Shown one piece after another: positions 33,420 through 49,478 of a DNA stretch of 64,000 bases. The position numbers and the translations under genes were made by a program. Source of the DNA: Bdellovibrionales bacterium RIFCSPHIGHO2_01_FULL_40_29 (GTDB lineage: Bacteria > Bdellovibrionota > Bdellovibrionia > Bdellovibrionales > Bdellovibrionaceae); contig MEPU01000011.1 in the NCBI GenBank assembly GCA_001771815.1, positions 4,670-68,669 on the forward strand. Direction: 5' to 3'. How positions within the stretch are numbered: the first letter of the stretch is position 1; the number at the start of each line of letters is the position of its first letter. The notes under the pieces were generated by a model. The model was not told where the DNA came from, searched no databases, and worked only from the letters and a program-made list of their open reading frames with translations.

Positions 33420-33555
33420 AGCGAACTCCCTTTGTTTTATCCTTTGCAATATAAATGCCTGGCATTGATAAAATCACTAGACCTCATTAATAACTTTGAA
33501 AAAATGCAATTCCAGTATAGACTAGATTTTTATACATTCTTTGAATAGGCGGATT

Positions 33556-34056
33556 ATGAGTGGGTCTAAGTACACTCGAAAAGATCTCTTTAGGTTTTTG
33601 TTGGGATCAGGAGTTCTTCTAAGCTCACAGAAGTTATTTTTTAATAATTGGTCCTTTTTACTGAATACACCAAAGGAAAGCACCCCTGTATTTTCTATTT
33701 TTATTGCCACATTTCAACAAGAGCAGATTGCGATCAATGATGACACCCGACTTATAGATCTAGTTAAAGACTGGAGTGAGAAAAAACAGTGGGTCTCTAA
33801 TTACACTTCTGTTCGAAATTATTTTATCGACTCATTCAAACTTCAAAAATCAGTCAAATTTTCAGAACATGGGCAATCACTTTATATAATAAACCAGTGG
33901 GCCAGCCGAGATGATTTCAATGACTTTTGCCAAAGCACCAGAATCACAAGTCTGCTTGAAAAACTAAGCCCATTTTTAACTTATAAGTATGAGTTGCGCA
34001 CAAACTTTCCAGACGAACTGAAAATCAAAAAAATGGGCGCGAACATCTTAACGTAG
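33556..34056 (+). CDS. ABM-like small protein with RK-type Tat-like N-terminus
   Basis: About 166 residues from ATG 33556 (a TTG at 33541 is possible). The N-terminus TRKDLFRFLLGSGVLLSS resembles a twin-arginine signal with Arg-Lys. The body (FSIFIATFQQEQ, FSEHGQSLYIINQWASRDDFNDF, YKYELRTNFPDE) follows a ferredoxin-like pattern like ABM or dimeric alpha-beta barrel proteins, and resembles the protein at 34851-35357. The two flank the first oxygenase gene on the opposite strand. Function not known. Confidence 0.6.
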   Translation: MSGSKYTRKDLFRFLLGSGVLLSSQKLFFNNWSFLLNTPKESTPVFSIFIATFQQEQIAINDDTRLIDLVKDWSEKKQWVSNYTSVRNYFIDSFKLQKSVKFSEHGQSLYIINQWASRDDFNDFCQSTRITSLLEKLSPFLTYKYELRTNFPDELKIKKMGANILT

Positions 34057-34073
34057 ATTGAAATTAATCCCTG

Positions 34074-34784
34074 CTAATCGCTTATTCTATCTTGAATTGC
34101 ATTAACGTCTAAGTTTAGCTGTATAAAATAATCTTTCATTTTTTCGTATTGTCGCCTTGTTATTGATTTAAAACAAAGAGGGTTCAATGGAAATGTGATA
34201 TGTACCCTATCCATTTTGGATTGATTCTCTATCCAGTGATTTTTAGCTGTATTCACCAAATAAAACTTTCCGCTTTCTGGAATATGATACTTTCGACCTT
34301 CAATATACACATGAGATTGCTGATTAGTTTTAACAGCATAGTGCAAGGTCCCCGTAGACGCTCCATCCGTATGTGGCTTCATACAAAAGCCTGGCTCTGC
34401 TATTAAAATTCGCCCACGTCTAAGCTCTATCTCCTTGCGAAAAAAGCTAAAAAAATCTTCGAACAAAACTCCGATTTCATTTTTTTTAGTATAGTTTACA
34501 ATTTTATCTTTCGTATAAATGATTTTGCCATTTGCATCCAAATAACTCACTTGATTGACGACATCATACAACTTATTCTTTTCATCAAAGTATTGAAGTC
34601 CAATCCCTTTATAACCAGCATACCCATCTTTGTATTGTAATTTATAATGAATTAGAATTTTCTCAATCAACGACTGATAGTACTCTATGTTTGAAAAATA
34701 CTTAATTTCCAAAACATCAAAATCACTGTCTGCGACACGATCCCCAATCTGCGACAGCTCGATTGATTCAAACATCTCTGCCAT
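34074..34784 (-). CDS. Asp/Asn beta-hydroxylase-like Fe(II)/2-oxoglutarate oxygenase 1
   Basis: A 236-residue protein. The metal triad is His138-Thr-Asp140 and His183, with Arg193 (MDRVHITFP) placed to bind the 2-oxoglutarate carboxylate. The frame RGRILIAEPGFCMKPHTDG, the PESGKFYLVNTAKNHWIENQS block and the C-terminal tail match the protein at 39776-40453 along most of the length, so the two are paralogues. It lies alone on the minus strand, convergent with one ABM-like gene and divergent from the other. The substrate is unknown; free or carrier-bound amino acids are possible. Confidence 0.75.
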   Translation of the reverse strand: MAEMFESIELSQIGDRVADSDFDVLEIKYFSNIEYYQSLIEKILIHYKLQYKDGYAGYKGIGLQYFDEKNKLYDVVNQVSYLDANGKIIYTKDKIVNYTKKNEIGVLFEDFFSFFRKEIELRRGRILIAEPGFCMKPHTDGASTGTLHYAVKTNQQSHVYIEGRKYHIPESGKFYLVNTAKNHWIENQSKMDRVHITFPLNPLCFKSITRRQYEKMKDYFIQLNLDVNAIQDRISD

Positions 34785-34850
34785 AAAACGCCCCCGAGAA
34801 ATAAATTAATACTACAATAACTAATGAAATCATATTAAAATTAGAACCAC

Positions 34851-35357
34851 ATGAAAAAATATGAACAAGATAAAGACTGGTACTTTATATCAAAAATATA
34901 CTTTACTTCAACAAATCCATCCTGGGCAAAAGAATACCTGCATGAAAGATCATACCGATTGACCTCAATTTTAAGCGACATGCTAGGCAATATTTTTTGG
35001 CAGACGTATGCTGATAGTTTAGTTGAAAAATTTAATTCTGGAGATTTGTTGTTAAGAGCAAAGTATACAGAATCAAATACAGTTATTTTGCTTCAGATTT
35101 GGAAATCAGAAAGAATTTTTCATGATTATAAAAAAAATGCATTACAAAATTTTAATCTGAAAGAATTATTATCCGAACGCAATATTCAGACCTGCGAAGT
35201 TGAATATAATACCTGCGAAAATCCAGAAAACATCATATTAACTGTACAAAAATACCCCCATTTATTTCAATTCCTAAATAGAAAAATAAATTCTACTGGC
35301 ATTAAAACTGGTGACCCCCTAAAAGAAGGTAATAGTTTTCTACCGTTCCCCAAATAA
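34851..35357 (+). CDS. ABM-like small protein
   Basis: A 168-residue protein without a signal peptide: WYFISKIYFTSTNPSWAKEYL, then VILLQIWKSERIFHDYKKNAL and a terminal strand CEVEYNT. The pattern follows the protein at 33556-34056 (both have a strand, then W-x-S-x-x-x-F-x-D-F/Y), so they are likely distant paralogues with a ferredoxin-like fold. Whether it is an oxygenase, a dimerisation partner or a carrier cannot be told. The region is very AT-rich. Confidence 0.6.
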   Translation: MKKYEQDKDWYFISKIYFTSTNPSWAKEYLHERSYRLTSILSDMLGNIFWQTYADSLVEKFNSGDLLLRAKYTESNTVILLQIWKSERIFHDYKKNALQNFNLKELLSERNIQTCEVEYNTCENPENIILTVQKYPHLFQFLNRKINSTGIKTGDPLKEGNSFLPFPK

Positions 35358-35391
35358 CAATAGAAAAGTATTGCATCTCATCTGCATCAAA

Positions 35392-36039
35392 CTAGTTCCG
35401 AATAAAATATTTTTCCCATCCATCAGAGCGCTTAAAATTATTCTTTAAAATTATCTGGTCAAACTCGGGATATTTTTTAGAACCTCGCCATGGCGACCCT
35501 AAGCAGATTGTTATTTTCTCGAAAGGCTCCATGTTTTTCATTCCATGCGCCCAACTACCATCCATCAAAAATGGCTTATCTGTTTGAGGTAAAAATAAAC
35601 AGCCAACATCCGTTAAATAATACAAAGAATCCGTTCGCCCCTGAATCACATATCTCAATTTCAATGAAAAATCTTCTAATTCGCACGGCAAGCAATCAAT
35701 ATGAACAGCATTACTTGTTTTTGCTGACGTTTTTAGGATCACTATACGCACATTCGGATCAATCCATGAAAAAATATGTTCTTCAAAATAATCCTTAATG
35801 ACCTCTGGACATTCTTTTGACCATTCATAACTCTGCCCCTCTAGATTAATAGCAGAATTTTCCAAATCAGCTCGAGTACCCACCCCCGCCAATGTCCGTA
35901 CAGGCAGAAGATGCGTGTTTCTGTAACTATCAAATAGCCACTTACTTTCAGGGATTTCTAATATCTCCTTAGCCGCAACCACTTTATTCATGTCAGCCAA
36001 GTTTAAACTGGCAAATAAAAGTGTTTCTGGATTGACCAT
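35392..36039 (-). CDS. Asp/Asn hydroxylase-like oxygenase 2 (divergent)
   Basis: A 215-residue protein with His113-Ile-Asp115 and His165 in GSWAHGMKNMEPFEKITICLGSPW. The expected Arg ten residues after the distal His is Lys175 here, a change that may alter co-substrate binding. The strand before the first His (VRIVILKTSAKTSNAVHID) fits the double-stranded beta-helix. It is more divergent than the other five oxygenases in this region. Orientation is opposite to the operon that begins at 36147, with a 107-base promoter gap between them. Confidence 0.65.
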   Translation of the reverse strand: MVNPETLLFASLNLADMNKVVAAKEILEIPESKWLFDSYRNTHLLPVRTLAGVGTRADLENSAINLEGQSYEWSKECPEVIKDYFEEHIFSWIDPNVRIVILKTSAKTSNAVHIDCLPCELEDFSLKLRYVIQGRTDSLYYLTDVGCLFLPQTDKPFLMDGSWAHGMKNMEPFEKITICLGSPWRGSKKYPEFDQIILKNNFKRSDGWEKYFIRN

Positions 36040-36146: not shown

Positions 36147-36917
36147 ATGATTGTGGCTGATTATACATTTTATGATAAATTCTACGCCCCTCACACTCAT
36201 TTTCCAAAGTTACGTAAATCTTATCATAAATTACCATCACTTTATTCTTTTGATCTCGAACAAGCACGGCTTGAGTATTTAAATATATGTAAAGTTACTC
36301 CCCTAAAGCCATTTGAATTCTTGGGGAACAATGGCAACCTGAGAAAACGCATCAGCTACCAAGGACTTGGCTTATCCTCACGGGTTTCAAAAGAAAGCTG
36401 CTATGACGCGCTATCGCTATATAATCCACAGGGCCATATAGATATTTTCAAAACTTTTGCAAAATCGTCCGACACCCTCCCCCCTGAAAATCGCGAAATT
36501 GAGAAACTTGATGAATCAGGGTTTTCTATACTAACTTCAGCATGCAATAGTTTTTATTCCAATATCATAGGTCGCTTTAAATCACCTTTTACCAAAGTTA
36601 GATTCTTAGAATTAAAACCTGGAGGCATGATTCCAAATCATTTTGATTTTCCTTATTATCAGGGAATCCGAATTCATGCCTGTCTGCATTCAAATCAAAA
36701 TGTAATCTGGAATGTTGAGGGGGAAGAGTTTAGCATCCCCAGCGATGGACATTTTTATTGGTTTGACACGGGAAAATACCATTCCGTAGTAAATAATAGC
36801 AATGAAAGTCGTATCGTACTCAGCATCAATCTGTCTGTCTATTTTGATAGATCTGGGAATCCACTGCATGATGCAAACACTGACTTATTTCAATTAATAG
36901 ACCAAGGCTTAATATGA
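36147..36917 (+). CDS. Asp/Asn hydroxylase-like Fe(II)/2-oxoglutarate oxygenase 3
   Basis: A 256-residue protein with His165-Phe-Asp167, His212 and Arg222 (SRIVLSINLSVYF). The segment VRFLELKPGGMIPNHFD and the PSDGHFYWFDTGKYHSVVNNSNES block are the same as in the sister enzymes. It is the first gene of a plus-strand operon: its TGA overlaps the ATG of the radical SAM gene by four bases. The N-terminal 140 residues are specific to this copy and may bind the substrate. Confidence 0.75.
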   Translation: MIVADYTFYDKFYAPHTHFPKLRKSYHKLPSLYSFDLEQARLEYLNICKVTPLKPFEFLGNNGNLRKRISYQGLGLSSRVSKESCYDALSLYNPQGHIDIFKTFAKSSDTLPPENREIEKLDESGFSILTSACNSFYSNIIGRFKSPFTKVRFLELKPGGMIPNHFDFPYYQGIRIHACLHSNQNVIWNVEGEEFSIPSDGHFYWFDTGKYHSVVNNSNESRIVLSINLSVYFDRSGNPLHDANTDLFQLIDQGLI

Positions 36918-37786
36918 GCATTTATTACGAAGTCAAACCAGAAGATAGCGATTTTTATACGATTGGCATCGATGTTACGCATAGATGCAATATGAACTGC
37001 AAGAACTGCTATAGCCCTGAAAGATTAGTTGAAGACTTCAAAAAAAATGACCTTATCTCTGTATTTAATAATTTAAAAAAACGCACTGAAATCAGATTTA
37101 CTGGGGGCGAGCCTACCTTAAGACAAGATTTGCCTGAGCTGATCATGGCTGCAAAAAAAGCAAAGCACCGTGTTGCCATTATGACCAATGGAATAAAGTT
37201 ATCTGATCTTGAATATTGTAAAAATTTATATGACGCTGGCTTGAGGTTTGTTTGTATATCCTTAAATGGCGCAGATGATGATCGCATCTACACACTTATT
37301 GATAATCAAAAATGCGCTTTTAAAAAAATGACAGCCCTTGATAATTGCATCAAAACAGGTTTTTTTATTAATATTAACCTGATTGTCGTTAAGGGTATAA
37401 ATGAACATTGCGTTTCTCGAATAATCGACATAGTTAAAAGATATAATATCAAATGCACAATTCGTTTTAGAAATATTGGACAAATTGGCAATCACATGAA
37501 ACAAGAAAACTATACCTTTCAAGAGTTACTTGATTTAATACCTAACTTGCTAAATATACAAAAACCAAACTACCAGGCTTATCATAAAGTTAATGGCCAC
37601 GATGAAGATCATAATGTATTATTCCCTTTATCCAACGAACCAAGTAATAAAATATGGATAAAAATTACCGACTGGGCTCCAGTCAATTCAAATATCCCAG
37701 ACCCTGGGAGCAAGCGCCGAGGACGTCTCACGCAAAATTTAATGATTGCACCATTCTTTGAAAATGTAGAATTAAATGGATATTAA
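36914..37786 (+). CDS. MoaA-like radical SAM enzyme
   Basis: A 290-residue protein with the [4Fe-4S] motif Cys25-x3-Cys29-x2-Cys32 (RCNMNCKNCY), the GGEP loop at 64-67 (FTGGEPTLR), and IMTNGI and ISLNG strands of the TIM barrel. The C-terminal 90 residues contain no Cys, so the auxiliary cluster of SPASM or MoaA proteins is missing, although GSKRRGRLTQN recalls the Arg-rich tail of MoaA. It generates a 5'-deoxyadenosyl radical; the substrate is unknown. Overlaps both neighbours, so it is part of a translationally coupled operon. Confidence 0.85.
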   Translation: MSIYYEVKPEDSDFYTIGIDVTHRCNMNCKNCYSPERLVEDFKKNDLISVFNNLKKRTEIRFTGGEPTLRQDLPELIMAAKKAKHRVAIMTNGIKLSDLEYCKNLYDAGLRFVCISLNGADDDRIYTLIDNQKCAFKKMTALDNCIKTGFFININLIVVKGINEHCVSRIIDIVKRYNIKCTIRFRNIGQIGNHMKQENYTFQELLDLIPNLLNIQKPNYQAYHKVNGHDEDHNVLFPLSNEPSNKIWIKITDWAPVNSNIPDPGSKRRGRLTQNLMIAPFFENVELNGY

Positions 37787-38348
37787 GGTTTTCAACAAAA
37801 CAATATTCGACGATCTCCATTTATTTTTAAAAGGTAGAAAAGTTTGGAAGCAGCTTGAAATGACTGACTCCGAAATTATCGATACCCTAAGTAGCTATTT
37901 AAATAGCCAAAACAAAAAATTGTATGTCTTGTTTCAAAATAATAAAATAAAAGCCACTCTCGGCGTTTTTGAATGGATGCGATTACCTTACTACACAATT
38001 ATAGATTATTATTGTGATTACGAAGGGAAACTGTCTAACTACAAAATATATAATGAAAAGCTATGGACCCATGTTATCTCAAGCATGGAAGATGTCGGAA
38101 GACACAGTTTTTACTGGTGCATAAAATCATATCCCCTTGCTAATTTAAAAAAAAGAGAAGAGCCTCAATTAGTCAAAATTATTCCTATTTTAAAAAAATA
38201 TCAGTTTAACATCGAAGCAATTGTTGAAAGCAACGATTCCAGTAAGTTTGAAATTTACAACAGCTTTGTCACAAAAAAATTTAATGGAGTATATCAAATT
38301 AAGCGCGCAACATTAAAATCTAAGTACTTTAACTATGGAAAAAATTAA
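37776..38348 (+). CDS. Putative acyltransferase-like protein, family uncertain
   Basis: A 190-residue soluble protein. KLYVLFQNNKIKATLGVFEWM followed by YYTIIDYYCDYEG resembles the central strands of a GNAT fold, and IPILKKYQFNIEAIVE resembles the closing helix-strand, but the acetyl-CoA loop (R/Q-x-x-G-x-G/A) is not recognisable. It overlaps the radical SAM gene by 11 bases and the desaturase by 14, so it belongs to the pathway. Treat the acyltransferase idea as weak. Confidence 0.6.
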   Translation: MDIKVFNKTIFDDLHLFLKGRKVWKQLEMTDSEIIDTLSSYLNSQNKKLYVLFQNNKIKATLGVFEWMRLPYYTIIDYYCDYEGKLSNYKIYNEKLWTHVISSMEDVGRHSFYWCIKSYPLANLKKREEPQLVKIIPILKKYQFNIEAIVESNDSSKFEIYNSFVTKKFNGVYQIKRATLKSKYFNYGKN

Positions 38349-39150
38349 TTTAAAAAAAATTTCAATAATACTAACAATGCATGGACTTGCTCTTGCTTCT
38401 TTTGGTGAGATCAATAAGTTGAATTTCACATCATGGTTCATAGCTCATATTTTATTTGCAACTTTAGGTGTTTCAGTCGGCTATCACAGATACTTTTCAC
38501 ATAAATCCTTTACCCCCCATCAAATGACTGAAAAAATCATTGCCCTTGTAAGCACACTTTGCTTTCAAGGAGGAATTATAACCTGGGCTGCACAGCACAG
38601 GGCCCATCACCTATATTCAGACAATCATGGTGACCCGCACAGCGCCAATCGTGGTTTCTTTTGGTCTCATATGAAGTGGATGTTTTATGACAATCCAAAC
38701 GGATTCACTATGGCTGCACACACAAAGCGAATCCGAGATTTAACTAAAAATAATTTCCTGGTCTCTTTAAATAAAAAATCAAACCTCATAAATATCTTAT
38801 TCTTAATGTCACTACTGGTCTTTTGTTTTCTTATCAACAGACCGTACTTATTTTTTTGGATAGGCCCTTTACGTATTGTCACCGTCTGGCATTTAACTTG
38901 GCTTACAAACAGCTACGTGCACAATGCGCATAACCAATCTCATTTAAAAAAGCCTTATAAAAAATCTTTATTTTTAAAAATATTTATGGGAGGTGAAGGT
39001 GATCACGAACATCACCATAATTTTCAATATCTAGCAACCAATTCTTACAAGATATCAAATTTTGACATGGGGTTTTATCTCATAGAATTACTCTACAAAT
39101 TGAATCTAATCTCTAGTTTTAAATTGACGATTATTACTGATGATAAATAA
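38335..39150 (+). CDS. Membrane fatty-acid (acyl-CoA/acyl-lipid) desaturase
   Basis: A 271-residue integral membrane di-iron enzyme of the delta-9 desaturase class. The three His boxes are HRYFSH at 51-56, HRAHH at 88-92 and the third as GDHEHHHNF at 222-230, with NAHNQSH at 198-203 giving the extra ligand. Hydrophobic spans flank them (about 12-45, 65-85, 150-200). It places a double bond in an acyl chain. Its location in an operon with a FeeM-like N-acyltransferase suggests that it shapes the acyl group of the pathway product; this is inference. Confidence 0.88.
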   Translation: MEKINLKKISIILTMHGLALASFGEINKLNFTSWFIAHILFATLGVSVGYHRYFSHKSFTPHQMTEKIIALVSTLCFQGGIITWAAQHRAHHLYSDNHGDPHSANRGFFWSHMKWMFYDNPNGFTMAAHTKRIRDLTKNNFLVSLNKKSNLINILFLMSLLVFCFLINRPYLFFWIGPLRIVTVWHLTWLTNSYVHNAHNQSHLKKPYKKSLFLKIFMGGEGDHEHHHNFQYLATNSYKISNFDMGFYLIELLYKLNLISSFKLTIITDDK

Positions 39151-39769
39151 TTTTGAATTTAAAATTATAGAGACAATGGAAGAGCAAGTTGTAGATCTAT
39201 TTAAGAATAGCTACACTGCAAAATATAATAAAAACTTCAAATTCAACAAAATTATCTGGTCTCATCTGGAAAGACAATCATTACACCTTGGCCTATATAA
39301 CAAGAAAAATTTAGTATCTTACCTACGACTCAGCCTAATTCATGACTTCTATTCTTTGCATTACGAAGTTCAATTAAATCTAAACAAGAATATGGACTTA
39401 GTCCCCTGCGCCCTAACTACTCGCGCCTGCACTGATTTAAAGTTTCAAAATCTTAATTTACATAAAATTCTTAGATTACGCGCTCTTGAAATTATTAATT
39501 TTTTAAATATAGATAATCTTTTTTGCACATTAGAAAAAAAATCAAATCAATACAGTAATTTAATTAAACTAGGTTACAAACCCGTTATTTCAAGTAAAAG
39601 TTGGAACGATAGTTATATTGAAAATAATTCCGATGTCGTACTTATGAATTTAAAGGGACATATGAATATTCAAGCGGCTATTGAAAACTTAACACACCAA
39701 TTAAAAATTGAAAACCTAAGATTCGACAGTAAAACGGCAGAAATCATCAAGAATACTTTAAATATGTAA
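39140..39769 (+). CDS. FeeM-like N-acyltransferase candidate 1
   Basis: A 209-residue protein with a pattern like N-acyl amino acid synthases of the GNAT/autoinducer-synthase type: LVSYLRLSL, the TTRACTDLKFQNLNLHKILRLRALEI core and LEKKSNQYSNLIKLGYKPV. Along its length it resembles the protein at 45784-46398 (shared T/A-R-A-x-T, L-H-x-x-L-R-x-R-A-L-E-I, S/C-x-L-E-K-K/R-S-x-x). It overlaps the desaturase gene by 11 bases. Likely reaction: transfer of an acyl chain from an acyl carrier or CoA to an amine, inferred from fold only. Confidence 0.62.
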   Translation: MINNFEFKIIETMEEQVVDLFKNSYTAKYNKNFKFNKIIWSHLERQSLHLGLYNKKNLVSYLRLSLIHDFYSLHYEVQLNLNKNMDLVPCALTTRACTDLKFQNLNLHKILRLRALEIINFLNIDNLFCTLEKKSNQYSNLIKLGYKPVISSKSWNDSYIENNSDVVLMNLKGHMNIQAAIENLTHQLKIENLRFDSKTAEIIKNTLNM

Positions 39770-40471: not shown

Positions 40472-41089
40472 ATGATCTCAGAAAAATGGAACATTAAATT
40501 TGATATCAATAGATTGCAAGAACACCTGAAACAATTTGTCATAAATAAAGAGATCACGCGGCAATCTTCGGCATTTGGTGGTTGGTCCGTTCTGTCCTCA
40601 GACGGAGACTATAAAGATGGGTGGCAACAGGGACACCTGCTTTATCGCAAAGGCGTCAGTGAAGAACAAAAAAAAATAACTCGCTCACAAATGAACAAAA
40701 AATTTTCTGAATACACCATTGAAACAGAAATATGCCACGGCTATCTTCTAGAGGTAATTAATACAATCCGCACTCACAAATTGCATCCGGCGCGTGCCCG
40801 AATTATTTGCCTGACAGCCGGAATGAGCTGTAGTTGGCACCGCGACGCCGCCGAAGGCATCTATGCTGTGCGACTGCATATTCCCATCATAACCAACGAC
40901 GGTTGTTTTTTCGAAACAGAAACCGAATCTGAACATTTACCAGCGGATGGATCCGCTTATTTTATTCATGTTAATCGAGAACATCGGGTCGTCAATAAGG
41001 GAAATGAAGATCGCTATCATTTGGTGATGGATGTATTTGATAAGAATAATATAACTCAGTTTCATCACTATGCAAAATCCAACTCATGA
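40472..41089 (+). CDS. Asp/Asn hydroxylase-like Fe(II)/2-oxoglutarate oxygenase 5
   Basis: A 205-residue protein with His123-Arg-Asp125, His171 and Arg181 (NEDRYHLVMDVFD). The core RARIICLTAGMSCSWHRD and LPADGSAYFIHVNREHRVVNKG match its sisters. Base composition is less AT-rich than in genes 34-40 kb and closer to the rest of the window. It is the last plus-strand gene before the convergent minus-strand operon at 41107. Substrate unknown. Confidence 0.75.
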   Translation: MISEKWNIKFDINRLQEHLKQFVINKEITRQSSAFGGWSVLSSDGDYKDGWQQGHLLYRKGVSEEQKKITRSQMNKKFSEYTIETEICHGYLLEVINTIRTHKLHPARARIICLTAGMSCSWHRDAAEGIYAVRLHIPIITNDGCFFETETESEHLPADGSAYFIHVNREHRVVNKGNEDRYHLVMDVFDKNNITQFHHYAKSNS

Positions 41090-41763: not shown

Positions 41764-43304
41764 ATCATGTCCTTTTTAATATCTTGAAAATACGTCTCTA
41801 GATACCCATCAAATCTTCGCACAATCTCTCTACGATTTTTTTCAATATCAACTGGTTGATTCAAAAAACTAATAATTTGTTCATGCGTGTACCCCAGTGT
41901 GCGCAGATGCGGATACATCCAAATGGTTCCAAAAATATTTGCTCGCTGTGTGTGATTTCTGTATGCTCCACTAAACTGCGTGGCTATCCGGTGGGCTTGT
42001 TCACTGTTCATTGACTGATGCTCCCAATAGCGCTTGGGCGAAAATTCAATTTTAGTAAAACCATATTTTTCAGGATTTCTAGAGTAATCTGCATAATCAA
42101 AGATTAGCTTGTCAAAATTTTCAGTATAGGGCATCAACCCCAATGCACCAAAAGTTACAAAATCAAAAACATCATTTTCGACAAGCCACTTATATGTTCC
42201 ATTGAGACTGGCCTCATCATCGCCCGGAAGGCCTATAATAAAAGACGCCTCAGCCAGACATTGATTCTTAAATCGAGAACGATATCTGATGAATAAGTCC
42301 TTCACTAAATCCGGATGGGTTCCTTTTCCTGCAGCCAGCGCGGCTTCATATTTGAAGGATTCTATCCCCCAGTACAGACCACGAGCTCCTGAGGCCAACA
42401 TCAAATCCAAGGTTTCGTTGAATTTAACGGCAACGTCGACTCGGGCATAAGAAACCCAATCAATTTTAAATGGTAATGACAGAAACATCTGACACACATC
42501 TTCAACTTTTTTTCGAGTGTCATTAAAACAATCATCACAAAAATGATACACTGTTGTTCCAAACAATTCATAATTACGAATCATTTCATTTTTTAATTGC
42601 GAAATGTCTTTTTTATCACTTTTCTTTTTTTCATAATGACAAAACTTACAATTATAAAGACACCCTCGACTGATTTCAATCGGAAGAGATTCTTTGACCT
42701 GAATACCCCATTTATTTTGAAAATGGCACACAGGACATAAATTTTGATTCTTCATTGGTTCTGATTGATAGATAAATCGTTCTGTCGATTCTATTTTTAA
42801 ATTTTTACTTTTATTGCTCTGACAGTATTCAATAAACGATTGATCCGCGGCTCCAAAAAAAACATGATCAAAATGCTGATAATATTCAGGTCGCCAATGC
42901 GCAAACTGAGCCTTAACACCACCTAAAACCAATTTACAATCTGGACTGATAGCCGTTATTTTATTTTTTAACTCTTGGGTCCAACGGAGCAATTCATCAC
43001 CGGAATTGAACCACAGATCTCCAGAATAATAATTAGTAACGCCATCCGATCTATTACCCTTGGAGGCTTTCGCCTTTTCTGCAGGGAATAAGAATGTTGA
43101 TGAAATCCCCACAACTTTAAGATCTGGAGACAAAAATTGATCGATGTAACTGAAAAAATCAGAATGTCGTGTAAAAAAATCAATCACCTGGCAACTGATT
43201 CCAGCCGTTTCCAGCTGACTCGCTAGCACATAAGGACCTATATAGCGGGTGGCACCGTAATTACCAAAAACAAAGTTATCAGACAGCAATAAAACTTCAC
43301 TCAT
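41760..43304 (-). CDS. B12-binding-type radical SAM enzyme
   Basis: A 514-residue protein. Residues 1-160 form a cobalamin-binding-like Rossmann domain (GATRYIGPYVLASQLETAGISCQVIDFF, VVGISSTF, LVLGGVKAQF). An extra Cys190-x2-Cys193 pair lies before the radical SAM cluster Cys215-x3-Cys219-x2-Cys222 (SRGCLYNCKFCHYE). The later strands ASFIIGLPGDDEASLNGT and the C-terminal helices fit the BchE/TIGR-type family. No DxHxxG motif is visible, so cobalamin may be bound base-off or not at all. Many relatives methylate unreactive carbons; the reaction here is unknown. Confidence 0.82.
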   Translation of the reverse strand: MSEVLLLSDNFVFGNYGATRYIGPYVLASQLETAGISCQVIDFFTRHSDFFSYIDQFLSPDLKVVGISSTFLFPAEKAKASKGNRSDGVTNYYSGDLWFNSGDELLRWTQELKNKITAISPDCKLVLGGVKAQFAHWRPEYYQHFDHVFFGAADQSFIEYCQSNKSKNLKIESTERFIYQSEPMKNQNLCPVCHFQNKWGIQVKESLPIEISRGCLYNCKFCHYEKKKSDKKDISQLKNEMIRNYELFGTTVYHFCDDCFNDTRKKVEDVCQMFLSLPFKIDWVSYARVDVAVKFNETLDLMLASGARGLYWGIESFKYEAALAAGKGTHPDLVKDLFIRYRSRFKNQCLAEASFIIGLPGDDEASLNGTYKWLVENDVFDFVTFGALGLMPYTENFDKLIFDYADYSRNPEKYGFTKIEFSPKRYWEHQSMNSEQAHRIATQFSGAYRNHTQRANIFGTIWMYPHLRTLGYTHEQIISFLNQPVDIEKNRREIVRRFDGYLETYFQDIKKDMM

Positions 43305-43315
43305 GACATTTTCAG

Positions 43316-43990
43316 CTACTTAACTAAAAAGCTCTGGATGGCTTTTTGAATATTTTTTTGGTTGAGCTGCAAGCTTATAGCAAACGTATAGGCATCCTTG
43401 GTGAAGGAAAAAACGGAATGCGGTTTCAGGGCATTAAATAAATAGGCCCGTCCCACCTCATATTTAATTTTTTTATCGTCATAAATAAAGTACAAATCAT
43501 TTTCTCCGCAGTTATTTAGAGCAATAAAAATTCTAAAATAATCTGGAACCTGATACTTGATGGATTGATCTCTATGAGGTGGAAAAAAACCACCCGCAGA
43601 AAATTTCACAATTCGACACCTACCAAGACCATCCTCAAAAGTTGTTAAAATATTTTGAATAGCTGTTACTTTTTTAAAAACCTCCGTCGGACGACAAAAA
43701 TCATTTTCAGAATAGACCTTTCCGGTTCTTTGACTAAACTCATAAAGGCTTTGCAAATCGGGCTCGCCGGAAAGACCACCATCTAATGATGTTACACTTA
43801 AACCCATTCTTCCGGTGTCACCCTTGTGCTTATTGTAAACGACCCAGTCATTGTCAAACTGTTTGATTTCATTTAAAAATAAATCTGTATCAATTTTAAA
43901 GTTCAGGGGAATAAAGTCACCATAGATGAATAATTGCTGATACAGAGAAAGTCGACTTGTGTTTACTTTTTCAATGATTTCTTGCGACAT
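43316..43990 (-). CDS. Asp/Asn hydroxylase-like oxygenase 6 (lacks the usual Arg)
   Basis: A 224-residue protein with His139-Arg-Asp141 in SAGGFFPPHRDQS and His191 in EVGRAYLFNALKPHSVF. After the distal His the sister enzymes have an Arg about ten residues on; here the stretch reads FTKDAYTFAISLQL with no Arg, so co-substrate binding must differ or activity may be changed. It overlaps the HTTM gene by 28 bases and precedes the radical SAM gene by 11, all on one operon. Confidence 0.7.
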   Translation of the reverse strand: MSQEIIEKVNTSRLSLYQQLFIYGDFIPLNFKIDTDLFLNEIKQFDNDWVVYNKHKGDTGRMGLSVTSLDGGLSGEPDLQSLYEFSQRTGKVYSENDFCRPTEVFKKVTAIQNILTTFEDGLGRCRIVKFSAGGFFPPHRDQSIKYQVPDYFRIFIALNNCGENDLYFIYDDKKIKYEVGRAYLFNALKPHSVFSFTKDAYTFAISLQLNQKNIQKAIQSFLVK

Positions 43991-44841
43991 ATATCCTCAC
44001 CAATTGGAATGATCCATGGAAAATACAGTATCATCCATGGAGTGAAACTAATATACATTAAAATCTTAATTCCTATTTGCATCAAGGCCAAACTCATCAC
44101 AATGTAAATACCATTCTTTTTTAAAAAAATTGTCAGCAGAGCCATAATTTCGACAAGAACAACTAGAAAAGCCAGGATCTTAATACTGGTTGGATATCCC
44201 AAAACAAACTGATTGATCTGGCTAAATCTATTGTAGTCCAGATGTCCCTCGTGCATATAATTTTGAATAGCCATCATGTTCTGCAAACTATTTTCAGTAA
44301 ACCACGCCGTTCCTGAATTCATCAGCTTTGATAGCCCTGCAAAAAAGAAAGCCAATGCAAAATAAATTTTTAAAAAAGTAAAAATATAGCTTTTAGAAAC
44401 AATTTTTGTTTTTCTGAAATAATTATCCACCGAGTATCGGCCCGGGCTTCCATTGATCACCCATAATAACAAGACCAAACCTATCGGATAAATATAATGA
44501 TTGCTATAACATGATCCCAGAGCATGCAGTATCAGTATAGAAAAAGAAATAAAAGTCATGAAGGCTGAAAATCGAAATAAAAAACCCACTGCCGAAAAAA
44601 TTGAAAACACGACCATGACTGACGAAATCCAACGGATCGAGTCAGCTGTTAAACGGAACGGCAATGAATAAAAAACATAATCACTACACTGGGAAAGTTG
44701 ATTGATTTCAATAAACTTAATAAAATACTCTTTTGATGGCATAACAAAAATCAGCACCAGAAAAGTTGCCATCCTTAATAAGGCATGACTGATGTCTAGC
44801 TCGCTATCTTCAATTTTAAAACTAAGGTAGCGCTTGAACAT
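43963..44841 (-). CDS. HTTM-like integral membrane protein
   Basis: A 292-residue polytopic protein with about six to seven hydrophobic spans. It has the HTTM/vitamin K gamma-carboxylase-like pattern: RWISSVMVVFSIFSAVGFLFRFSAF, LHALGSCYSNHYIYPIGLVLLLW, INGSPGRYSVDNYF, LKIYFALAFFFAGLSKLMNSGTAWF, and ILAFLVVLVEIMALL. Gamma-carboxylases of this superfamily use reduced quinone, but the catalytic Lys cannot be assigned here. It overlaps both neighbours, including a small membrane protein that may be its subunit. Confidence 0.72.
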   Translation of the reverse strand: MFKRYLSFKIEDSELDISHALLRMATFLVLIFVMPSKEYFIKFIEINQLSQCSDYVFYSLPFRLTADSIRWISSVMVVFSIFSAVGFLFRFSAFMTFISFSILILHALGSCYSNHYIYPIGLVLLLWVINGSPGRYSVDNYFRKTKIVSKSYIFTFLKIYFALAFFFAGLSKLMNSGTAWFTENSLQNMMAIQNYMHEGHLDYNRFSQINQFVLGYPTSIKILAFLVVLVEIMALLTIFLKKNGIYIVMSLALMQIGIKILMYISFTPWMILYFPWIIPIGEDICRKKSLKK

Positions 44842-45223
44842 AAAATTCTTCTACTATTTGAGTTTCTAATTGTGTGATATCAAATCGGGCTTTAACTACC
44901 AAAACCTGACTGTAATTCGATCTGTCTTTAACTCTATTCACAAAAATAGAAATCCAATCAAAATTTTTTGACTTCATATTTGAATAACACATCTGATGCA
45001 AATGAAGTCTGGACATTGGAAAAACATCCCTCACTTTTATAAATTCAATGCCCCCCTGCTTGTCTTTAAATGCCAGTGTGCAAAAAGTTGGCTCTAGTCT
45101 TAAAAAAGAAAACATATAAAAATCAGAAAAAGGATAGATTCTTTCGTGAATAAAAAAATTAACAAACAAGGCTAAAATTAAACAGATCATGACTGCAAGT
45201 TTGAAATCAATTCGACGTCTCAT
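44822..45223 (-). CDS. Small single-span membrane protein, likely partner of the HTTM protein
   Basis: A 133-residue protein with an N-terminal anchor (FKLAVMICLILALFVNFFI) and a periplasmic-side domain containing YMFSFLRLEPTFCTLAFKD and VVKARFDITQLE. It overlaps the HTTM gene by 20 bases and starts two bases after the GNAT gene ends. Membrane partners of this size commonly accompany HTTM proteins, which is the basis for the guess. Family not recognised. Confidence 0.62.
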   Translation of the reverse strand: MRRRIDFKLAVMICLILALFVNFFIHERIYPFSDFYMFSFLRLEPTFCTLAFKDKQGGIEFIKVRDVFPMSRLHLHQMCYSNMKSKNFDWISIFVNRVKDRSNYSQVLVVKARFDITQLETQIVEEFYVQALP

Positions 45224-45224: not shown

Positions 45225-45686
45225 TTATGATAAAATCCTTTTCATCACATAATGCGGACCAAACTCGAATTTTTCAGTTCGATAATCTTCTCTAAATCCT
45301 ATTTTTTTATAAAAATCTATATTGTGAAGTCGAGCCATGGTCCAAACACAGTCTCCAGTTTTAAAAGGAATAGCCGCCATTAATTGATTGATTACACTTT
45401 TCCCATAACCTTGACCGCGGTGCTGTTCACTGACCCAGTTGCCACGCAGTCTGAATTCAGAAAAACTCGTTTGATGAATTGAGCTGACCGCAAGAATTCG
45501 ATTCTCTGAAGTTATTTTTGCAAAAACTGGAGAATAGGACATGATACTGATGTCAATCTCGCTATTCGACTTGATGCAACTGACGGACTCAATAGGACTT
45601 GTACGCCCTGGCCACAACTGATGACTCCATATAGGTAAAATTTCACTGAATGTGCTCAGACTAAAAAGAGGCTCCATATATGACAT
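45225..45686 (-). CDS. GNAT-family acyltransferase A
   Basis: A 153-residue GNAT protein with the acetyl-CoA loop EQHRGQGYGKSVI (R-G-Q-G-Y-G) and the closing NIDFYKKIGFRED. Its opening EPLFSLST is repeated as EMLFSLST in the protein at 47286-47789, so these are paralogues. It heads the minus-strand operon that runs to the SDR. The amine acceptor is not known. Confidence 0.82.
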   Translation of the reverse strand: MSYMEPLFSLSTFSEILPIWSHQLWPGRTSPIESVSCIKSNSEIDISIMSYSPVFAKITSENRILAVSSIHQTSFSEFRLRGNWVSEQHRGQGYGKSVINQLMAAIPFKTGDCVWTMARLHNIDFYKKIGFREDYRTEKFEFGPHYVMKRILS

Positions 45687-45783: not shown

Positions 45784-46398
45784 ATGCCCTATTCTTTTTG
45801 CATTAAACCCTCCATCGACGAAATTACACAACTTCGTAAAGAATCTTTTGTAAATTTTTACTGTGAAAAAGTAAGGCCACAAGGACTTGAATGGAATAGC
45901 ACAGATGAGCAATCTATTCATATTGGAATCAGACACCAAGATCAACTCATTAGCTGTCTCAGAATAACGGCCCTCAATGATTTATCAGAGCTCAGAGATA
46001 GAATAAAAATCCCTCTGACGTTGAATCAACCACCTCCGTATATTCTGCTTGCTCGCGCCGCCACCAGTCCCTTGTTTTTAAATAAAGGCCTGCACTCGCT
46101 CTTGCGCATCAGAGCTTTAGAAATTAGCTTACAGCAAAACTACACTCAGATCTTTGGCTCACTTGAAAAACGATCAACCCGCTTAAATCAGCTTTTAGAT
46201 ATTGGTTATGAAATTATCGGCGAAGCCTCTCATTGGCCCAACAGTTTCCTTGAAAATCAGGGGTCTGTCGTAGCAATTCAATTAAGTTCGAAAAACAAAA
46301 TTGAAAAAGCACTTGGAAAATTATATACTATTTATCAAATTAAACCCATGATTCACACCATTGAGACTTTTAAATTTTATGAACCAACTCACCTCTAA
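45784..46398 (+). CDS. FeeM-like N-acyltransferase candidate 2
   Basis: A 204-residue paralogue of the protein at 39140-39769: LARAATSPLFLNKGLHSLLRIRALEI, GSLEKRSTRLNQLLDIGYEIIGEAS. It resembles N-acyl amino acid synthase/LuxI-type acyltransferases in pattern, with the R-x-A-T-S-P core. It is divergent from GNAT A with a 97-base gap and its end overlaps the start of the first PP-loop gene by 20 bases. Substrates are unknown. Confidence 0.62.
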   Translation: MPYSFCIKPSIDEITQLRKESFVNFYCEKVRPQGLEWNSTDEQSIHIGIRHQDQLISCLRITALNDLSELRDRIKIPLTLNQPPPYILLARAATSPLFLNKGLHSLLRIRALEISLQQNYTQIFGSLEKRSTRLNQLLDIGYEIIGEASHWPNSFLENQGSVVAIQLSSKNKIEKALGKLYTIYQIKPMIHTIETFKFYEPTHL

Positions 46399-47317
46399 CA
46401 ATCACTTTAAATTTGGTTATGATCACGACTGGTTTCAGCCGCGAAAGTCTCCTCACCAAACCTGGACTGTTCAATATGGTTCGTGCGAACGTCCTGTGGG
46501 AAATTTTCAAAACGAATGTCTCAATGCAGCTCGTAAAATTCAAGACAATGCTCGTCAAAAAATGACGGTGCTGTTTTCCGGAGGCGTTGATTCAGAAGTC
46601 GCACTTCAATCCTTTGTTCTAGCAAAGGTCCCTGTCACCGCCGCAATCTTAAGATTTAAAAATGATTTGAATATTCATGACATCTCTTACGCGATTATCA
46701 CATGTGACAGATTGGGCGTAAAATACAAAATCTTTGACCTGGATATCATTCATTTCTGGGAAAATCAGTTGCTTGAGTATGCGGACCCCACTTATTGTAT
46801 CTCACCCCAACTTCTATCAACGATGTGGCTTGCAGATCAAATTGACGAGTATCCGGTCCTAGGTAGCGGAGAATGTCTGTTAGTTAAAGATTATGCTGAT
46901 TCCTATCAGCCTGGGATTTCACCTTATATTCACAGTGAATGGTCACTTTGGGAAAAAGAAAAAATTGCCGCCTGGTACAGGCATTTTATTGTTAAAAATC
47001 GCCCCGCCTGTCCCGGTTTTTTTCAATACACTCCGGAAGTTATTCTATCTTACATTCTAGACCCTTTTGTTCAAAAACTGACTCGAAGCGAAATTATCGG
47101 AAAACTTTCTACTGAATCTTCAAAGCTTCAAATCTATCAGCAACACTTTAATTTGATTGATCGTCCCAAGTTTACAGGATTTGAACATGTTCAAGCGGCC
47201 GATTCTTATTTTAGAAAAATACTGACTGATCGATTTCCTGAAACCAATCAAATCTTCAAAAGTAACGTCACTGATTTAATAAAATCTATGACTTATAATC
47301 AAAATACATCAGTCTGA
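46379..47317 (+). CDS. PP-loop ATPase (asparagine-synthetase-like), copy 1, without glutaminase domain
   Basis: A 312-residue protein from ATG 46379. The PP-loop is LFSGGVDSE at 65-73, where asparagine synthetases have S-G-G-L-D-S-S. There is no N-terminal Cys nucleophile domain, so ammonia from glutamine is not made in this chain. It matches the protein at 48540-49478 throughout (NNHFKFGY start, KSPY, PGFFQYxPE, KLxT). PP-loop enzymes adenylate a carboxyl or carbonyl group and let an amine or sulphur attack. Its 3' end overlaps the convergent GNAT B gene. Confidence 0.78.
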   Translation: MNQLTSNNHFKFGYDHDWFQPRKSPHQTWTVQYGSCERPVGNFQNECLNAARKIQDNARQKMTVLFSGGVDSEVALQSFVLAKVPVTAAILRFKNDLNIHDISYAIITCDRLGVKYKIFDLDIIHFWENQLLEYADPTYCISPQLLSTMWLADQIDEYPVLGSGECLLVKDYADSYQPGISPYIHSEWSLWEKEKIAAWYRHFIVKNRPACPGFFQYTPEVILSYILDPFVQKLTRSEIIGKLSTESSKLQIYQQHFNLIDRPKFTGFEHVQAADSYFRKILTDRFPETNQIFKSNVTDLIKSMTYNQNTSV

Positions 47318-47789
47318 TTTTTTCCAAATCTTGATATATTGGTTTACCGGTTTCAGGACAAAAAACAATTGCTTTCCGAGGCACAAATTTTGGCTCAATT
47401 CTAAACTGATTTTTTTCATGAAATGCAACTGAACTTTCTTTTGCAAAAGAAATAATTCTTCGGACTTTCCCCGCATACAGGATTTTAATTTGATCAATTA
47501 AAAAACTCATGACTCCGAGATTTCTAAATTCAGCTTTAACAAAAAGACCGCGAATACGAATGATTTCAGGTGAAATATAATAAACAGCCATCCATGCGAT
47601 TTCTACTGAAAGCACTTTAATACTGTAAACTTTTAATTTTTGCTTATCAAAATCCTCATCATCAATGTATTGCCTGCTCGAAAAAGTGTTTGCGTTCACA
47701 TAATTTTCAAAAGGTACTTTTTGCTCAAACATGGACTGACTCTGCTCAGCCCAAACCTCAACGGTCGACAGACTGAACAACATCTCCAT
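47286..47789 (-). CDS. GNAT-family acyltransferase B
   Basis: A 167-residue protein from ATG 47789 (AAAGG upstream). It shares the MLFSLST opening and the strand-helix RIRGLFVKAEFRNLGVMSFLIDQI with GNAT A (RLRGNWVSEQHRGQGYGKSVINQL), but the acetyl-CoA loop is weaker (R-N-L-G-V-M). It ends with FHEKNQFRIEPKFV, the usual GNAT closing helix and strand. The start lies 32 bases inside the end of the upstream gene, so the two are coupled. Confidence 0.7.
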   Translation of the reverse strand: MEMLFSLSTVEVWAEQSQSMFEQKVPFENYVNANTFSSRQYIDDEDFDKQKLKVYSIKVLSVEIAWMAVYYISPEIIRIRGLFVKAEFRNLGVMSFLIDQIKILYAGKVRRIISFAKESSVAFHEKNQFRIEPKFVPRKAIVFCPETGKPIYQDLEKIRLMYFDYKS

Positions 47790-48513
47790 AGAATTGCCTT
47801 TCATTGAGATTGATCGGTAAATTTTTACTTAAACTCAATTCATAGATCCTATGCACCGGATAGTGTCTGTGCTGTATGACTGATTCTTCTTTCGAAAAAA
47901 TGGCAGAACACCACATCAGTAAATTTTCTCCCTGCATAATTTTTACCCGATGATATGGATCCTCATTGGATGGAGATAACTCTTTTAAAATAATACTTCG
48001 ATCAATTTGATCATTATGAAATCCAGCTGATTGAGTTAAATGAAGCCAATTCATCAACTCAGCAGATTCTAAGTAAGTTTTAAAAAAATGAGGGAAAATC
48101 AGCGTTGGCTCAGTAATTACATGTGCTGTTTTACTTTTTAAAGTCTGCTCAATAATTTGCGAATGATTCGTTGTTATGTGAACAAAATAAGGAACGCCTA
48201 AATCTATTTTTTCAATTTGGTCAAAATTAATATTAAAAATTCTGATACCAAATGTCGGAAAAAAGACTGTTTTATGGAGATAAGATTCCAGGGTCATCAA
48301 ATCATTGATTTGCTCACAATCAATGATTTCAAATTGAACTCCCGTAATTTGAAAGGCATTCCTATAAAACTTAAAAAAAATACTTTCATCGTTTACCAAC
48401 ACGACGTTGTCCAATTGCTTTCTTATTAAATCAAAAGCCAGGGCATCAAGTAAGCAGGAAAACCTCTGTCCGGTGGATTCAGAATTTATAGACTTAATTT
48501 TATTTAACAACAT
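47758..48513 (-). CDS. Protein of unknown function in the island
   Basis: A 251-residue soluble protein. VVLVNDESIFFKFYRNAF and VPYFVHITTNHSQIIEQTLKS could be parts of an alpha/beta fold; there is no recognisable nucleotide, metal or catalytic motif apart from scattered His (HRHYPVHR near the C-terminus). It overlaps GNAT B by 32 bases and lies back to back with the second PP-loop gene 26 bases away, so the two may share a bidirectional promoter. Confidence 0.62.
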   Translation of the reverse strand: MLLNKIKSINSESTGQRFSCLLDALAFDLIRKQLDNVVLVNDESIFFKFYRNAFQITGVQFEIIDCEQINDLMTLESYLHKTVFFPTFGIRIFNINFDQIEKIDLGVPYFVHITTNHSQIIEQTLKSKTAHVITEPTLIFPHFFKTYLESAELMNWLHLTQSAGFHNDQIDRSIILKELSPSNEDPYHRVKIMQGENLLMWCSAIFSKEESVIQHRHYPVHRIYELSLSKNLPINLNERQFYGDVVQSVDR

Positions 48514-48539
48514 GCTATCACTATGCTACTTTAATTTCT

Positions 48540-49478
48540 GTGTTTGAGTATACTAAAAATAATCACTTCAAATTTGGCTATAATGATTTAAATCACTATC
48601 AGCCACGTGAAAATGCAAATGACAGGTTTAGCTTCGAGTACGGCTGTGTTGAACAACCCCAACTGACTTGGCGCCAATCCAACGAACTTGCGGCTTTGGA
48701 TATTTTTTCAAAGCGCAGTGGGGATATCACGATTCTGCTTTCCGGCGGAACGGATAGCGAAATTTGCCTGCGGAGTTTTTTAGATCAAAAATTGCCCGTG
48801 AAAACGATCTCGTTGCGTTATCTTGATTTAAATCAAGACTCAGAACTTTTTTATATTCATAAGTTGAAAGCAGACTATTCCCTGGACCACACCTTTGTCG
48901 ATTTAGCAGTTAAAGATTTCACCTTGAGTGATGATTTTTTTAAAATTGCTGATCCCATTAAATGCGTGAGTCCCATTATTGTGAGCCATCTTTGGTTGGC
49001 CAACCAAGTTCCCGGTACTCCCATTATTGCTCAAGGAGAGCTTCATCTGAAGAAAAGAATACCTGCAGATTATATCCCCGGGAAAAGCCCTTATTTAAAA
49101 AGCCCTTGGTCTGTTTTTGAAAGCGAACGACTTTGCAGTATTTATACAAATTTTATGCTCCGTAAAAAGCCAGCTATCCCTGGTTTTTTCCAATATCTGC
49201 CGGAACAAATCTATAGTTATTTAACAAAGAATCCGTACCTGACTCAACTTGTGACAAATTCCATTCCTGGAAAATTGGGAACCCGCACCAGTAAAAACAT
49301 CATGTCGCACCAATTTTATCCAGAAATCCCCATTCGAAATAAATTGCATGGCTGGGAATCTGAGCAAGATTTTCATGATCACACTCGCGCCTTATTGGCT
49401 CAACGATTTCCGGACTCAGATCAATCTGCCGCTGTTGAGTACGATGAGATCATCCAAAGGTGCGTCAATATTAAATGA
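48540..49478 (+). CDS. PP-loop ATPase (asparagine-synthetase-like), copy 2
   Basis: A 312-residue paralogue of the protein at 46379-47317 with the PP-loop LLSGGTDSE at 66-74 and no glutaminase domain. Shared landmarks are NNHFKFGY, the FEYG strand, DYIPGKSPY, KKPAIPGFFQYLPE and the terminal W-E-x-E/V segment. It starts at GTG 48540 without an obvious ribosome-binding site. Two closely related PP-loop enzymes in one pathway suggest two successive activations or two substrates. This is the last gene of the island. Confidence 0.78.
   Translation: MFEYTKNNHFKFGYNDLNHYQPRENANDRFSFEYGCVEQPQLTWRQSNELAALDIFSKRSGDITILLSGGTDSEICLRSFLDQKLPVKTISLRYLDLNQDSELFYIHKLKADYSLDHTFVDLAVKDFTLSDDFFKIADPIKCVSPIIVSHLWLANQVPGTPIIAQGELHLKKRIPADYIPGKSPYLKSPWSVFESERLCSIYTNFMLRKKPAIPGFFQYLPEQIYSYLTKNPYLTQLVTNSIPGKLGTRTSKNIMSHQFYPEIPIRNKLHGWESEQDFHDHTRALLAQRFPDSDQSAAVEYDEIIQRCVNIK

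Follow-up and report, generated by a model that had tools for sequence, protein, structure and literature searches.

Organization of the gene island

The window considered here is the whole 64,000-nucleotide stretch analyzed from contig MEPU01000011.1 of a Bdellovibrionales bacterium, and all positions refer to it. At 33541-49478 it contains a block of about 16 kb in which the coordinates of 22 open reading frames were verified:

A1, 33541..34056, + strand: small protein with a Tat/signal-like N-terminus, no family match
A2, 34074..34784, - strand: PF05118 hydroxylase, HTD...H, paralogue of A10
A3, 34851..35357, + strand: small protein, no family match
A4, 35392..36039, - strand: probable 2OG oxygenase, HID...H, no Pfam match
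A5, 36147..36917, + strand: PF05118 hydroxylase (42.7 bits), in the five-gene module
A6, 36914..37786, + strand: radical SAM protein, MoaA/tetraether-lipid-synthase-like, in the five-gene module
A7, 37776..38348, + strand: GNAT-like family common to viral clusters (f1), in the five-gene module
A8, 38335..39150, + strand: membrane di-iron desaturase-like protein, three His boxes, in the five-gene module
A9, 39140..39769, + strand: GNAT-fold N-acyltransferase-like (weakly 'FeeM-like'), in the five-gene module
A10, 39776..40453, + strand: PF05118 hydroxylase (23.3 bits)
A11, 40472..41089, + strand: PF05118 hydroxylase (42.2 bits)
A12, 41107..41763, - strand: short-chain dehydrogenase (SDR)
A13, 41760..43304, - strand: B12-type radical SAM protein, best match (below cut-off) to the PhpK methyltransferase family
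A14, 43316..43990, - strand: PF05118-like hydroxylase below cut-off, HRD...H
A15, 43963..44841, - strand: HTTM membrane protein
A16, 44822..45223, - strand: small membrane protein preceding the HTTM gene
A17, 45225..45686, - strand: GNAT, above cut-off
A18, 45784..46398, + strand: GNAT-fold N-acyltransferase-like, paralogue of A9
A19 (PP1), 46379..47317, + strand: glutaminase-less asparagine-synthetase-type ligase (modelled)
A20 (GNAT2), 47286..47804, - strand: GNAT-like
A21, 47758..48513, - strand: no family match
A22 (PP2), 48540..49478, + strand: PP-loop paralogue of A19 from a separate, ancient subfamily

The start codon of A19 is most likely the ATG at 46379 rather than the TTG at 46361. 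The first-pass annotation had described about 22 genes in tight, overlapping operons, and this organization was confirmed: most adjacent genes inside operons overlap by 4-47 bp, as seen at 36914/36917, 37776/37786, 38335/38348, 39140/39150, 41760/41763, 43963/43990, 44822/44841 and 47758/47804. Domain searches of the island revealed no NRPS or PKS (condensation, ketosynthase) or carrier protein domain, and the intergenic gaps leave too little room for a conventional precursor gene, in agreement with the earlier statement that no NRPS, PKS or peptide precursor is present.

The island is AT-rich, with a GC content of 0.354 vs 0.403-0.425 in segments of equal length taken from the remaining stretch. 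Its right boundary is sharp and adjoins a zinc-uptake block (49527-52826), which recurs with three to four genes in genomes of the same genus without an adjoining island. The left flank (32115-33449) produced a single marginal match among 29 other genomes. The island was probably acquired horizontally.

Assignment of the enzyme families

Six Asp/Asn hydroxylase-like oxygenases had been announced. The HxD...H iron site is indeed kept in all six, but the gathering score of PF05118 is passed by A2, A5, A10 and A11 only, with A14 below it and A4 devoid of any match. The solved structures closest to A11 are the caprazamycin-pathway beta-hydroxylase entries 7v4f and 7v4m (E 2e-6), the former being Cpz10 (PMC9814697); the superfamily is common to both, but caprazamycin is a nucleoside antibiotic and the island showed no nucleoside-specific feature. 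The two radical SAM enzymes, the SDR and the HTTM protein all score above cut-off. The desaturase assignment of A8 is carried by its three histidine boxes and a weak match to the DesA model, a Pfam match being absent.

Among the two GNATs initially proposed, A17 was upheld, and A20 matches GNAT models below cut-off only. A7, formerly listed as unknown (37776-38348), could be placed in a GNAT-like family through its similarity to viral family f1 (E 2e-16; 95.5%). The label of FeeM-like acyltransferases given to A9 and A18 was not confirmed: neither has a Pfam match, their family profile retrieves weak GNAT matches alone in the PDB, and A18 matches the exosortase-associated acyltransferase model TIGR03694 with 18.9 bits vs 111.95 (E 8e-4). 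The OlsB-type Acetyltransf_5 domain (PF13444) is absent from the island.

The description of A1 and A3 as ABM-like found no support, as no ABM or other family model was matched in Pfam and PHROGs by A1, or in Pfam, PHROGs and NCBIfam by A3. A small viral family (f22) considered as ABM/A1-like ranked first among the viral families, yet with a probability of 13.8%. A21 was considered as a degenerate PP-loop paralogue on account of a motif order similar by eye, but the idea was rejected after comparison by hhalign (2% with the PP family, 10% with true degenerate PP-loops); the middle domain of a PP2-GNAT fusion was likewise unsupported as an A21 homologue. The AlphaFold2 (AF2) model of A21, built from an alignment of two sequences, has a pLDDT of 30.

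The PP-loop motif SGGxDS is found in both of the announced PP-loop ATPases, A19 and A22. PP1 is modelled as an asparagine-/beta-lactam-synthetase-type ligase without a glutaminase domain. Its AF2 model (pLDDT 93.5) displays the synthetase-domain fold over residues 1-292, and the nearest folds are asparagine, beta-lactam and carbapenam synthetases (Z 13.4-16.5, about 245-264 residues aligned), with Z values of 15.7-16.5 for asparagine synthetases. Unlike these enzymes, with which it has the motif and the fold in common, PP1 lacks the N-terminal Ntn glutaminase domain (it has 312 residues, and the AsnB alignment begins at about residue 73) and its sequence similarity to them is near or below noise. 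The island further differs from these systems in containing two paralogues, accompanied in some related clusters by a degenerate relative, and in GNATs that are often adjoining or fused. The asparagine synthase model PF00733 is matched by A22 with 16.5 bits vs a cut-off of 21, and not by A19. The region of the catalytic Glu of asparagine synthetase was not reliably aligned onto PP1 by profile alignment, and a broad PP alignment gave no usable pattern.

Recurrence in other Bdellovibrionota

Homologues that never occur together elsewhere had been named beforehand as a refutation of the first-pass reading. Joint occurrence was counted over 100 relatives, with values also calculated at genus level, and this refutation failed. 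The families are found together in other Bdellovibrionota beyond chance: PP-loop and A11 relatives co-occur in 9 of 10/10 genomes (p 5e-11; genus level 3e-5) and PP-loop and A13 relatives in 7/7 (p 7e-9; genus level 6e-4). A scan of genome contigs with A22 alone as query returned no match. The five families of module A5-A9 (36147-39769) all occur at a single locus of genome G071 (L145). The A15, A14 and A11 families occur together (G080; L138), and at L138 a gene also occupies the position of A16 ahead of HTTM. Relatives of the PP pair, A20 and A21 are together in G039, where one A21 relative adjoins PP2/GNAT2.

A13 relatives adjoin an A11 relative with one PF13444 gene nearby (L101), an A9/A18 relative (L100), a single 652-aa ORF with A9-like and A11-like parts (L102), or an A2-type hydroxylase fused to a PF04116 fatty-acid hydroxylase and accompanied by two desaturases (L105). 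The cluster at L026 combines PP2, A13-type and A11-type genes with two desaturases, a carrier protein (PF00550), SDRs and transketolase parts. Elsewhere an A18 relative adjoins a PP1 orthologue (L027) and an A20 relative is fused C-terminally to a PP2 relative (L033). The fusions join A22 to GNAT, FeeM-like to A11, and fatty-acid hydroxylase to A2. The earlier assertion that the island has no known counterpart consequently stands in part: no described cluster or assigned product was found in the literature on this enzyme combination, but partial clusters exist in Bdellovibrionota, as do viral ones.

Relatives in uncultured viruses

Desaturases, 2OG oxygenases and GNATs of viruses are usually read as scattered 'auxiliary genes'. 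In uncultured T4-like viruses, about nine of the island genes have relatives that recur as clusters. A PP-loop gene is present on 21 uncultured-virus contigs, together with a desaturase on 20 of the 21 and an A11-type hydroxylase-family gene on 19, and is absent from 50,697 isolate phage records and 72,556 plasmids. The occurrence of this PP-loop/desaturase/A11-type set on uncultured-virus contigs is newly seen here. At least some of the 21 contigs are T4-like: gp23 and prohead protease are encoded on the L046 and L058 records, and terminase- and portal-like genes were recognized by reading on L052, most other viral records being short fragments without hallmark genes. A relative of the SDR A12 comes after the PP-loop gene at five viral loci, and an A17 relative adjoins the PP-loop gene in L046, L047 and L064. 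The multi-enzyme set has a cellular counterpart with the same families in operons; the viral genes therefore probably act jointly as a pathway.

Proposed pathway and alternative explanations

That a biosynthetic pathway is encoded here is well supported, and from its enzymes we infer a product that appears to be a small, oxidized, amino-acid-type molecule, probably acylated. As to the hydroxylated, possibly N-acylated product suggested previously, hydroxylation is plausible in view of the six iron motifs, but acylation rests on weakly identified acyltransferases. We tentatively favor a reading, somewhat short of an even chance, in which the island is a concentrated assembly of a modular pathway scattered elsewhere in Bdellovibrionota and yields an N-acyl amino-acid amide (lipoamide) that is hydroxylated and desaturated. 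The GNAT-fold acyltransferases A9 and A18, and perhaps A7, A17 and A20, would acylate an amino group, the donor probably being a carrier-bound acyl chain. Desaturase A8 and perhaps the radical SAM enzyme A6 would alter the acyl part, PP1 and PP2 would adenylate a carboxylate and couple it to an amine to give the amide, and the PF05118 hydroxylases would install several hydroxyls. The B12-radical SAM enzyme A13 could methylate or rearrange the scaffold, the SDR would set an alcohol or ketone, and HTTM A15/A16 may handle a membrane-bound form.

The lipoamide reading is supported by the A5-A9 module at L145, the A15-A14-A11 group at L138, the A13 neighbourhoods, the L026 cluster, the co-occurrence statistics, the PP1 model, the proximity of A11 to caprazamycin beta-hydroxylases, and the precedent of stieleriacine, in whose proposed cluster N-acyl amino acid synthesis is paired with a desaturase (BGC0002080, PMC7293339). 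In such FeeM-type N-acyl amino acid clusters, as in the island, an acyltransferase-like gene adjoins a fatty acid desaturase; the island goes beyond them with PP-loop ligases, six hydroxylases, two radical SAM enzymes and HTTM, and its acyltransferase is unconfirmed as FeeM. The ornithine lipid pathway (OlsB/OlsC/OlsD/OlsE, PMC3972451) is alike by its logic of N-acylation followed by several separate hydroxylases, and by the PF04116 fusion to an A2-type hydroxylase at L105. It differs in that the island has no OlsA/OlsB-type gene and that the ornithine lipid route includes no step for PP-loop ligases or radical SAM enzymes. Against the lipoamide reading, the island itself holds no acyl carrier protein and shows no evident exporter or regulator, and A9/A18 are weakly placed among N-acyltransferases and lack a viral counterpart. 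In the f10 genomes the genes are spread over several loci, so that the set need not serve a single product.

Bdellovibrionota comprise many predatory bacteria and few assigned metabolites. The island provides this phylum with a conserved, testable set of genes whose pathway is undescribed and probably forms an amide. A broader proposal, which we regard as doubtful, is that the paired glutaminase-less asparagine-synthetase-type ligases are the core of a new class of specialized-metabolite pathway in bacteria of predatory lineage, and that uncultured T4-like phages carry part of it and employ its product, or a molecule related to it, in infection.

The enzymes could instead make or modify a residue on a surface glycan, a lipid A-like lipid, or a phage tail or host surface, after the manner of the host recognition cluster of marine T4-like phages; we hold this to be rather unlikely. 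The viral clusters do sit among tail-fibre/structural genes, with a glycosyltransferase-like family (phrog_1962 match) and a putative methyltransferase family, and A5 weakly matches the model of the lipid A hydroxylase LpxO (E 1e-4). Hypervariable host recognition clusters with glycosyltransferases have been described in pelagimyophages, whose freshwater members encode a 2OGFeDO protein along with a stearoyl-CoA desaturase (PMC7029224). The viral PP-loop clusters resemble these pelagi-/cyanomyophage regions by their location and by the desaturase and 2OG oxygenase, but a term search of that article found no mention of asparagine-synthase-type genes. Domain searches detected no glycosyltransferase, flippase or ligase in the bacterial island, and the bacterial loci compared hold no relatives of the glycosyltransferase-like viral families f5/f8 or of f3.

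Modification of a secreted protein or peptide, such as the Tat-signal proteins A1/A3, by the hydroxylases, GNATs, PP-loop ligases and radical SAM enzymes appears improbable. Small proteins with Tat-like signals adjoin A7-type GNAT genes at L145 and L105 and also occur in the L026 and L036 clusters, and Tat-signal proteins, one of them bearing a Peptidase_S74 domain, are encoded next to more distant PP-loop genes. However, kinship of A1 or A3 to the Tat proteins of these four loci, or to each other, was unsupported by shuffles, neither a recognition domain nor a typical RiPP precursor was seen, and the solved relative nearest A11 works on a small molecule. The Tat proteins of L036, L145 and L105 resemble each other.

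Equally improbable is a hot spot gathering phage-derived or exchanged auxiliary genes with no single pathway. The low GC content, the sharp right edge, the viral relatives of about nine families and the patchy distribution in the genus, where only two of 14 genomes (G000 and G001) have both strong PP-loop and strong A11 relatives, would fit such cargo. Signatures of phage structural genes, integrases or tRNAs were not seen in the island, though, and the viral loci lack the A9/A18 (FeeM-like), A13 and A15 families. In the tree, viral PP-loops form one group (84% support) and bacterial PP1 and PP2 are separate, so a recent insertion from a virus does not account for the island copy.

A last alternative, in which PP1 and PP2 act on nucleobases/tRNA or 7-deazaguanine (QueC/MnmA/TilS-like) and their neighbours are unrelated, is very improbable. 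Weak QueC, MnmA and NAD-synthase HMM matches speak for it, and A22 narrowly passes the QueC Pfam model PF06508 (23.5/22) across 63 residues. Scores remain far under the NCBIfam equivalog cut-offs, however (A22 has 17.9 bits vs 150.3 required for QueC, TIGR00364), the full-length structural match to asparagine/beta-lactam synthetases has clearly higher Z, and oxygenases and GNATs are tightly linked to the PP-loop genes.

Extent and composition of the gene set

The island proves to be a real gene set for biosynthesis, conserved and for the most part undescribed, and it has an unexpected viral connection. The 22 ORFs (A1 to A22) placed there by the first-pass annotation are present from 33541 to 49478, their ends mostly overlapping, in a window originating from contig C11 of a 2.93 Mb genome. 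The block is AT-rich, with a GC content of 0.354 versus 0.403-0.425 in equal-length windows of the remainder. On the right it is bounded by a zinc-uptake block, which three genomes of the same genus also have, there without the island. The left boundary is less distinct. An orphan protein with a signal-like N-terminus lies directly to the left (32115-33449); as it has one marginal match only among 29 related genomes, it may be part of the inserted block. The island is flanked, one per side, by two hybrid histidine kinases that are paralogues of each other (29242-30924 and 52792-54408; HisKA, HATPase, receiver).

Pfam bore out several of the initial labels, namely four PF05118 hydroxylases, two radical SAM enzymes, the SDR, a GNAT and the HTTM protein, while 'ABM' (A1, A3) was unsupported and 'FeeM' (A9, A18) weak. 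All six announced hydroxylases keep the HxD...H motif, A14 and A4 being the weaker matches. In the desaturase-like A8, three histidine boxes are present, and the DesA model matches weakly. A7, unnamed by Pfam, is a member of a GNAT-like family abundant in viral clusters (E 2e-16; hhalign 95.5%). The best model for the radical SAM protein A13 is the PhpK P-methyltransferase family, at a score far below that model's cut-off, and the likeness of A6 to MoaA and tetraether lipid synthase is not diagnostic.

Recurrence in related genomes

The gene set had been presented as one pathway without known counterpart. Family matches and literature searches found no assigned product, and the families do occur together in Bdellovibrionota relatives. 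In a search of 100 related genomes they recur, often dispersed. Strong relatives of the PP-loop proteins and of the hydroxylase A11 coincide in 9 genomes (of 10 and 10; p 5e-11) and those of the PP-loop proteins and A13 in 7/7 (p 7e-9), or p 3e-5 to 6e-4 for the three counted by genus; these values are indicative, since the cut-offs were set after the score tables were seen and genera are not independent. The five families of the A5-A9 operon are all present at one locus (L145, G071), and the A15-A14-A11 families at another (L138, G080). The neighbours of A13 relatives differ between loci: a relative of A9/A18 in L100, one of A11 in L101, and in L102 a single ORF of uncertain start with A9-like and A11-like parts. 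In L105 the neighbourhood comprises a fusion of an A2-type hydroxylase with a Pfam fatty-acid hydroxylase, two desaturases and a relative of A7. A sister cluster (L026, G034) combines PP2 and an A11-type protein with two A13-type proteins and two desaturases; it also has a carrier protein, an A7-type GNAT and transketolase parts. ORFs of the fetched loci were called mechanically, with uncertain starts and unreliable calls on high-GC contigs; contig and viral scans were keyed on short conserved patterns, so that some members will have escaped them.

The PP-loop pair

The paralogues A19 (PP1) and A22 (PP2) each have orthologues in other genera, and the tree thus places them in two ancient subfamilies. 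Close PP1 relatives were found in Bdellovibrionales/Bdellovibrionota assemblies, one 'Alphaproteobacteria' and one Kofleriaceae MAG contig. In genomes of family f10, PP1 adjoins an ORF of about 700-825 aa that starts as PP2 and whose C-terminal part matches the GNAT A20 in L033; in G039, PP1 and PP2 lie together with relatives of both A20 and A21. Outside Bdellovibrionota, three consecutive genes of the Kofleriaceae MAG (L075, 5858-8305) encode PP1, a PP-loop protein that is degenerate (lacking SGGxDS) and a GNAT; the same three families are present in viral locus L047.

The AlphaFold2 model of PP1, built from 23 sequences, has a pLDDT of 93.5. Residues 1-292 best match human and E. coli asparagine synthetase and beta-lactam synthetase (Z 14.5-16.5), followed by carbapenam synthetase (13.4-13.5), hydroxyamidotransferase (11.4) and then sulfur transferases and NAD synthetases (9-11). 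Judging by this predicted fold, PP1 would function in the manner of an adenylating ligase that forms amides. It falls outside the classical asparagine synthetase family, because the glutaminase domain is absent and the Pfam score fails as well.

Proposed pathway and viral relatives

The gene set is best read as a modular pathway whose product would be an amino-acid amide, N-acylated, desaturated and bearing several hydroxyl groups. The analysis shows co-occurring families, conserved modules, gene fusions, retained motifs and a predicted fold; we infer every reaction, the reaction order and the product. Three features suggest that the chemistry would be lipid-like: the presence of desaturases, the fusion to a fatty-acid hydroxylase and, in the sister cluster, a carrier protein. 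The nearest solved relatives of A11 are caprazamycin beta-hydroxylase entries, which suggests that its step would be a small-molecule beta-hydroxylation. The proposed stieleriacine cluster, with an acyltransferase and a desaturase, is a precedent for that pairing in the island.

The main rival is surface decoration, since viral versions of the cluster adjoin tail-fibre and glycosyltransferase-like genes. A pattern-based IMG/VR scan with the PP alignment yielded 21 loci, perhaps about ten independent ones as several are near-duplicates. Family profiles detected a desaturase in 20 of the 21, the A7 family in 10 (26 members are counted in the linked viral family) and a PP-SDR-A2/A10-type-A11-type run in 5; the A11-type was the best profile for a gene in 19, some at E 1e-7 to 1e-9 only. 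These loci yielded no member of the A9/A18, A13 or A15 families. Genes for the T4 major capsid and prohead protease are present in two parent records; in L052 the cluster is flanked by genes that, read by eye, are terminase- and portal-like. Viral PP-loops form one tree group with modest support (84/80). PP1 was found in none of 50,697 phage records and 72,556 plasmids; among the phage records, 3 have a desaturase relative and 1 an A11 relative, and Pelagibacter phage Mosig has both, at separate places. In pelagimyophages, tail fibres and glycosyltransferases are described as parts of a hypervariable host recognition cluster; freshwater members carry a desaturase and a 2OG protein (PMC7029224).

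Other loci

A second locus of the source genome (L042, G000:C13:381001-401000, 6336-13622) encodes a carbamoyltransferase (PF02543/PF16861) and a cupin-like protein as well as asparagine-synthase-like and PP-loop proteins. It shares synteny with L041 (G034:C3) over part of its length, and viral clusters (e.g. L048, L050) also contain two of its families. Distant PP-loop relatives adjoin or bear Tat-signal-like sequences (L037 10608-11099, L039 11651-11998, L042 12615-13622), the neighbour in L037 being cysteine-rich with a Peptidase_S74 (tail-fibre chaperone) domain. A second A11-type hydroxylase of the source genome lies apart from the island, near a contig end (L043 16926-17618, G000:C3).
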